From the NCBI GenBank assembly GCA_003702495.1, contig REGH01000005.1, positions 1 through 41,549 on the forward strand: a DNA stretch of 41,549 bases, written 5' to 3'. The notes under the pieces were generated by a model, which saw only the letters and a program-made list of their open reading frames with translations, was not told where the DNA came from and did not search any database. Below, in pieces: positions 41,367-41,534 of the stretch (position 1 is its first letter; every line of letters begins with the position of its first letter). A program made the translations under genes and the position numbers. This DNA comes from Candidatus Nitrosopumilus sp. GTDB taxonomy: Archaea > Thermoproteota > Nitrososphaeria > Nitrososphaerales > Nitrosopumilaceae.

Positions 41367-41388
41367 CACACACCTTTGTTTCCACTCT
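41367..41388 (-). promoter_or_regulatory. ORB-like element, inverted: reverse complement agaGTGGAAACAAAGGTGTGTG
   Basis: GTGGAAACAAAGG core matches my recollection of the archaeal ORB/mini-ORB consensus; perfect 17-bp inverted partner at 41518-41534. Confidence 0.7.
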
Positions 41389-41517
41389 TCTTTTTTCTAA
41401 TTTTTTTATTTTAGAAAAAACAAAAACTAACTAAAAATAATTAATTACAAACTAAACTAGAATTACTATTCTATACTATACTCTCATAATTGAGATATGA
41501 TTAAGATGAAATTGATA
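41384..41517. other. AT-rich candidate duplex-unwinding element
   Basis: Strongly AT-rich, near-homopolymeric tracts (ttttttctaatttttttattttagaaaaaacaaaaactaactaaaaataattaatta) between inverted ORB-like arms. Confidence 0.6.
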
Positions 41518-41534
41518 GGAAACAAAGGTGTGTG
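41518..41534 (+). promoter_or_regulatory. ORB-like element (GGAAACAAAGGTGTGTG)
   Basis: Perfect inverted repeat of 41367-41383. Confidence 0.7.

Follow-up and report, generated by a model that had tools for sequence, protein, structure and literature searches.

A predicted ORB/Orc1-type chromosomal replication origin of a Nitrosopumilus-type archaeon, with a conserved spacer core, a TTAAC cluster and a divergent winged-helix gene

Results and discussion

A predicted chromosomal origin

The stretch of DNA studied here (the window, 41,549 nt) ends in what is, with a probability of about 0.94, the chromosomal oriC of a Nitrosopumilus-type ammonia-oxidising archaeon, an origin of the ORB/Orc1 kind predicted from sequence. 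Its layout comprises four origin recognition boxes (ORBs), two of them inverted around an AT-rich spacer and two in tandem upstream, and an orc1/cdc6 gene begins directly to the right. It is an ordinary origin of a kind already known, one origin having been mapped in Nitrosopumilus maritimus. It marks the likeliest replication start on the chromosome of abundant marine ammonia oxidisers. Beyond the textbook origin the locus has a conserved core within the spacer, a TTAAC cluster specific to the origin and a winged-helix gene divergent from orc1.

From Sulfolobus and Haloarcula we infer how Orc1 binding, MCM loading, melting and firing would proceed at such a locus. Orc1/Cdc6 made from the gene directly to the right would dock on the two oppositely facing ORBs. 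ATP-Orc1 on the inverted ORBs would bring in the MCM helicase at the AT-rich spacer, which would then melt and send out two forks. An earlier note on this DNA had proposed initiator-binding arms around a meltable spacer, and this proposal is favoured by the orc1 neighbour, by the fit of the arms to the ORB motif, by the confinement of the ORB core and by the conservation of the arms.

The inverted repeat and the origin recognition boxes

The left arm (CACACACCTTTGTTTCC, 41367-41383) and the right arm (GGAAACAAAGGTGTGTG, 41518-41534) are exact reverse complements at 17 of 17 positions, and the match is still 95% when they are stretched to 20 nt. They lie 134 nt apart (41384-41517), and the ATG at 41538 begins 3 nt past the right arm. 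The earlier note, which had reported a perfect 17-bp inverted repeat, a distance of 134 bp between its arms and a right arm ending 3 nt upstream of that ATG, was accurate in all of this. The pair is the sole exact inverted repeat of at least 17 nt with arms at most 300 nt apart in the 41,549-base window, and 20 dinucleotide shuffles of the window yielded none. At up to three mismatches the arm sequence is found twice in the window, against 0.18 occurrences expected.

ORBs were scored against the common motif of 20 positions as published with Ori-Finder 2 (PMC4164010). The left arm, a predicted ORB in reverse orientation that reads GGAAACAAAGGTGTGTG on the minus strand, has 4 mismatches, and the right arm, in forward orientation on the plus strand, has 5. 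Two further copies on the plus strand, with 3 mismatches each, form a direct repeat of 100% identity: copy 1 (GCCTGGAATGGAAATAAAGGGGT) at 41216-41238 and copy 2 at 41278-41300, 62 nt downstream. The arms are thus two of four predicted ORBs. Five places in the window have at most 5 of 20 mismatches; four are the ORBs named above and the fifth lies at 25922, with 4 mismatches. Both tandem ORBs end in GGGGT, the G-string known from ORB ends of some lineages, and both arms in GGTGT. The tandem spacing of 62 nt corresponds to approximately six helical turns.

The ORB core GGAAAYRAAGGKGT is confined, in the whole 1.27-Mb assembly, to the four ORBs and an assembly duplicate described below, and a reversed control pattern gave zero matches in the same assembly. 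A complete relative (G007) has three matches to the core in the 800 kb sampled as 40 blocks, all of them at the origin end.

The initiator gene and an assembly joint

The gene to the right of the arms is a predicted orc1/cdc6, which encodes the archaeal replication initiator (400 aa, plus strand). Only its first 12 bases (41538-41549) fall within the window; the gene is truncated by the window end and continues in the contig, where the frame resumes past a scaffold joint. The product matches the Orc1/Cdc6 profile TIGR02928 with 369 bits (cutoff 181), possesses Cdc6_lid and Cdc6_C domains, and finds 2v1u (2e-82) and 2qby_A (8e-82) in the PDB. Its best named matches are Nitrosopumilus metagenome assemblies, at 98%. 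Both subunits of DNA polymerase D are encoded nearby: the large subunit DP2 at 35079-38456 on the minus strand (NF003103, 1400 bits), and the small subunit DP1 downstream of orc1 in the contig (NF003118, 559 bits).

Beyond the window the right arm recurs at 41745-41761 of the contig. This apparent third arm is not real, because it belongs to an unmerged scaffold overlap: bases 41423-41549 (127 nt) recur without a single change on the other side of a 100-N gap, and in five of five close relatives checked the sequence is present in a single copy. The duplication, which affects positions 41423-41776 of the contig (the window ends at 41549), is best read as an overlap left unmerged at a scaffold joint that separates orc1 from its origin.

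Conservation in relatives

Conservation was measured as mean pairwise identity over 88 distinct loci, the present one included. Removed from this set were 22 identical rows, a short row (L142), the copy from the same scaffold (L008) and partial repeats (L038-L041); the distant loci L047-L067 were kept out of it and read in a wider survey instead. Identity is 0.933 for the left arm and 0.839 for the right arm. Within the spacer it is 0.850 at 41422-41460 and 0.812 at 41461-41485, and falls to 0.682 and 0.620 in the outer parts, while the 13 bases ahead of the left arm reach 0.450. In the orc1 control, for which 78 of the 88 genes were usable, third codon positions have an identity of 0.568 and four-fold sites one of 0.456. 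By this control, both arms and the middle of the spacer are conserved well above neutral expectation. Arms left to drift around a conserved spacer, the outcome that the earlier note saw as telling against its proposal, were not found: arm identities are high.

A strict pattern for both arms is passed by 64 of the 88 loci, and in these the arms lie 121-136 nt apart, with a mode of 134. Among the 24 that fail it, 19 have both arms slightly changed, as judged from the printed sequences, and in the other five (L139, L144-L147) the arm pair is displaced from the ATG. It might be thought that the perfect symmetry of the arms is itself the conserved property. Exact mirroring, however, is seen in only 1 of the 64 scored loci, the present genome, and is therefore incidental; in 58 of the 64 the arms differ at 3-4 of 17 bases. 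The conserved property is the presence of two predicted inverted ORBs rather than exact mirror symmetry.

The predicted layout, beside PolD genes, is kept in relatives within Nitrosopumilus and widely across the order. In the family, 28 of 35 loci have two tandem ORBs 61-62 nt apart and 32 have the reverse ORB, with no pattern match to the latter in the remaining three. Several genera carry the reverse ORB at -216 to -256 from the ATG, against about -160 otherwise, and in some sister lineages the right ORB is about 100-150 nt from the ATG. ORB matches are patchier in 21 further loci, two of them from deep branches of the genus and 19 from the order's other families.

The ORB beside the start codon may repress orc1; the earlier note had suggested that the gene could be autoregulated. 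With the reverse ORB shifted in several genera, the ORB pair need not lie close to the start codon. Autoregulation is accordingly less likely as a general function, and possible in the present genome.

The AT-rich spacer

The spacer (41384-41517) is a candidate duplex unwinding element (DUE). The earlier note rightly called it AT-rich and went too far with "almost entirely A/T", the measured A+T content being 82%. By predicted stability it ranks as the 8th least stable of the 41,416 overlapping 134-nt windows. The least stable 134-nt stretch of all, at 40374-40507, is the gap preceding a small AbrB/MazE-like gene at 40504.

The 39-bp core at 41422-41460, which holds CTAACTAAAAATAATTAATTACAAACTAAACTA, is conserved nearly as strongly as the arms and in the manner expected of a putative binding site. 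With up to three mismatches allowed, a 21-nt part of it matches the genome at one place only, the assembly duplicate aside. In its strict form the core is present in 8 of 35 family loci.

Comparison with known origins

The origin of N. maritimus was reportedly mapped by marker frequency by Pelve et al. in 2013. Published accounts give this species a single mapped chromosomal origin (PMC4010727, PMC4588119, PMC4164010) and describe ORB repeats that precede its cdc gene (PMC5797428). The likeness to the present locus (same lineage, single origin, ORB repeats before cdc) is one of published description; none of the 80 named contigs compared here is labelled SCM1.

In Sulfolobus, as described in PMC12141716, the inverted ORB2 and ORB3 flank an AT-rich region and each is required; each binds a monomer with polarity, and the pair directs MCM to the DUE between them. 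With that origin (oriC1, ORB3-DUE-ORB2 with the motif ucm; PMC12141716) the present locus shares the inverted ORBs, the AT-rich region, the adjacent orc1 and a conserved motif within the AT-rich region, namely ucm there and the spacer core here, both in the middle of the spacer. The two motifs differ in their use of the genome: the ucm protein is described as binding over 300 sites in Sulfolobus (PMC12141716), whereas the spacer core occurs once in the present genome. They also differ in sequence. The 11-bp ucm has no exact copy in the spacer, and its best match there, ATTA-(2-base gap)-TACAAAC, has a score equalled in 80 of 2000 shuffled spacers, 70 of 2000 shuffled cores and 10 of 310 consecutive 134-nt windows. 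With an extended ucm the score was reached in 204 of 2000 shuffled spacers and in 16 of 2000 shuffled cores, the core having been picked after its conservation had been seen. We therefore reject the identity of the spacer core with ucm; the likeness is weak (a gapped match, with shuffled sequences scoring equally) and serves as a lead only.

The minimal oriC1 of Haloarcula is described as two inverted ORBs with an AT-rich region in between (PMC3936714). Haloarcula hispanica oriC1 thus shares with the present locus an AT-rich region between inverted ORBs beside cdc6, and has in addition a conserved repeat which tunes the origin; that repeat is G-rich and lies inside the ORBs (PMC3936714). In the present origin, by contrast, the extra elements are the TTAAC sites outside the ORB pair and the AT-rich core, and unlike those of H. 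hispanica oriC1 (PMC3936714) the arms lack a long G-string.

Strand composition and alternative explanations

The complete relative G007 was used to examine strand composition. Its orc1 begins at base 148 of 1,563,356. AT skew averages -0.047 from the 80-kb to the 800-kb block and +0.034 elsewhere, a split matched by none of 100 shuffles, though the shuffle ignores the correlation between neighbouring blocks. The far switch lies opposite orc1 (position 0), and the near boundary, in 20-kb blocks, fits 80 kb rather than 0. GC skew in the same genome gave no support for an origin, 61 of 100 shuffles being as good. The AT-skew switch in G007 is consistent with an origin at the locus, and is helpful but coarse.

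The inverted repeat might instead be no more than an operator or promoter of orc1, at which Orc1 or another dimer controls transcription while replication starts elsewhere. A right arm 3 nt from the ATG suits this explanation, as does the conservation of the spacer core in a spacer that must contain the orc1 promoter. An operator, however, leaves unexplained the two extra ORBs upstream and the absence of the ORB core from the rest of the genome. Some sister lineages moreover keep the pair even though its distance from the ATG is greater by about 100-150 nt, the AT skew points to an origin at the locus, and the single origin described for N. maritimus (PMC4010727) goes with ORB repeats that precede cdc (PMC5797428). 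We consider an operator without origin function very unlikely.

Far less probable still are two further explanations. Exact inverted arms that bracket a short non-coding stretch are what the terminal repeats of a small MITE-like mobile element, inserted ahead of orc1, would look like, and the earlier note had itself considered transposon termini. The arm has no other copy in the genome, however, and across the genus its position is fixed, its spacing near-constant and its sequence varied around the ORB consensus; the element is also present in most of the family loci read. Transposon ends were rejected on the lack of a second genomic copy and on the fixed position in relatives. An origin of the pair in faulty assembly or in chance is as improbable. 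The scaffold is broken right at the locus, with 127 bases duplicated around 100 N, yet both arms lie to the left of the break in unbroken sequence and the independent assemblies of relatives carry one left and one right arm. The artefact accounts for the third copy at 41745-41761 and for nothing else, and chance is opposed by the 0 of 20 shuffles. An ORB/Orc1-type origin is thus the reading that we retain.

A possible second recognition system

A cluster of TTAAC/GTTAAC sites (41080-41353; 9 sites, with 14 overlapping pentamer matches) is interleaved with the tandem ORBs. There are 14 TTAAC/GTTAA pentamers in the 309 bases leading up to the left arm; 396 other windows average 0.45 and hold at most 3. 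In G007 the densest 309-base window is again that of the origin, with 14 matches against at most 7 elsewhere in the 800-kb sample, and the corresponding stretch has 5-16 matches in the 82 loci of the genus with enough flank. No other place in the genome has the triple TTAACA-N-TTAACA-N-TGTTAA that stands at 41326-41352.

On the far side of this cluster a gene on the minus strand (40671-41057, 128 aa) encodes a predicted winged-helix protein; it and orc1 diverge from the 480-bp intergenic region that holds the origin. In the AlphaFold model (mean pLDDT 76.7) the fold is a winged helix that bears a beta-hairpin at its N-terminus. A profile search of the PDB with the protein gave no match at E up to 1, and Foldseek found none for the model at E 0.001 or better, the nearest structures being generic winged-helix repressors. 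A weak Penicillinase_R match is found in 32 of 33 members and is under the curated cutoff in the present protein.

Among 80 named loci, 78 have the gene in divergent orientation, and the contigs of the other two stop within 520 bases. It is likewise divergent in 34 of 35 family loci, where the single miss is again an early contig end, and it was found in 17 of the 21 further loci described above. More widely, the protein family to which it belongs has members in 51 of the 61 genomes sampled from the order and, at the level of the phylum, in 63 of 101. From 47 matching genomes outside the family of the present organism a distant sample of 20 Thermoproteota was chosen. The gene faces orc1 across about 0.6-0.9 kb in 10 of these; in the other 10 no orc1 was found in the roughly 4 kb examined on either side, so the linkage is not universal.

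It is possible, if on balance doubtful, that Nitrosopumilus-type origins carry a second recognition system beside Orc1 and the ORBs, composed of the TTAAC cluster and the spacer core and perhaps read by the winged-helix protein. Such a system would do in thaumarchaea, through a different protein, what ucm and UBP do in Sulfolobus. We infer its unity: spacer core, TTAAC cluster and winged-helix gene are joined here by interpretation. In literature listings from an open-access library, one of them confined to the best 20 of 102, no title pointing to TTAAC clusters or this winged-helix gene at thaumarchaeal origins was found. The UBP gene is described as restricted to Desulfurococcales and Sulfolobales (PMC12141716), and the authors of that work ask whether other archaeal lineages hold analogous origin proteins. 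For this question the present locus offers both a DNA target, in the spacer core and the TTAAC sites, and a candidate protein, in the product of the winged-helix gene.
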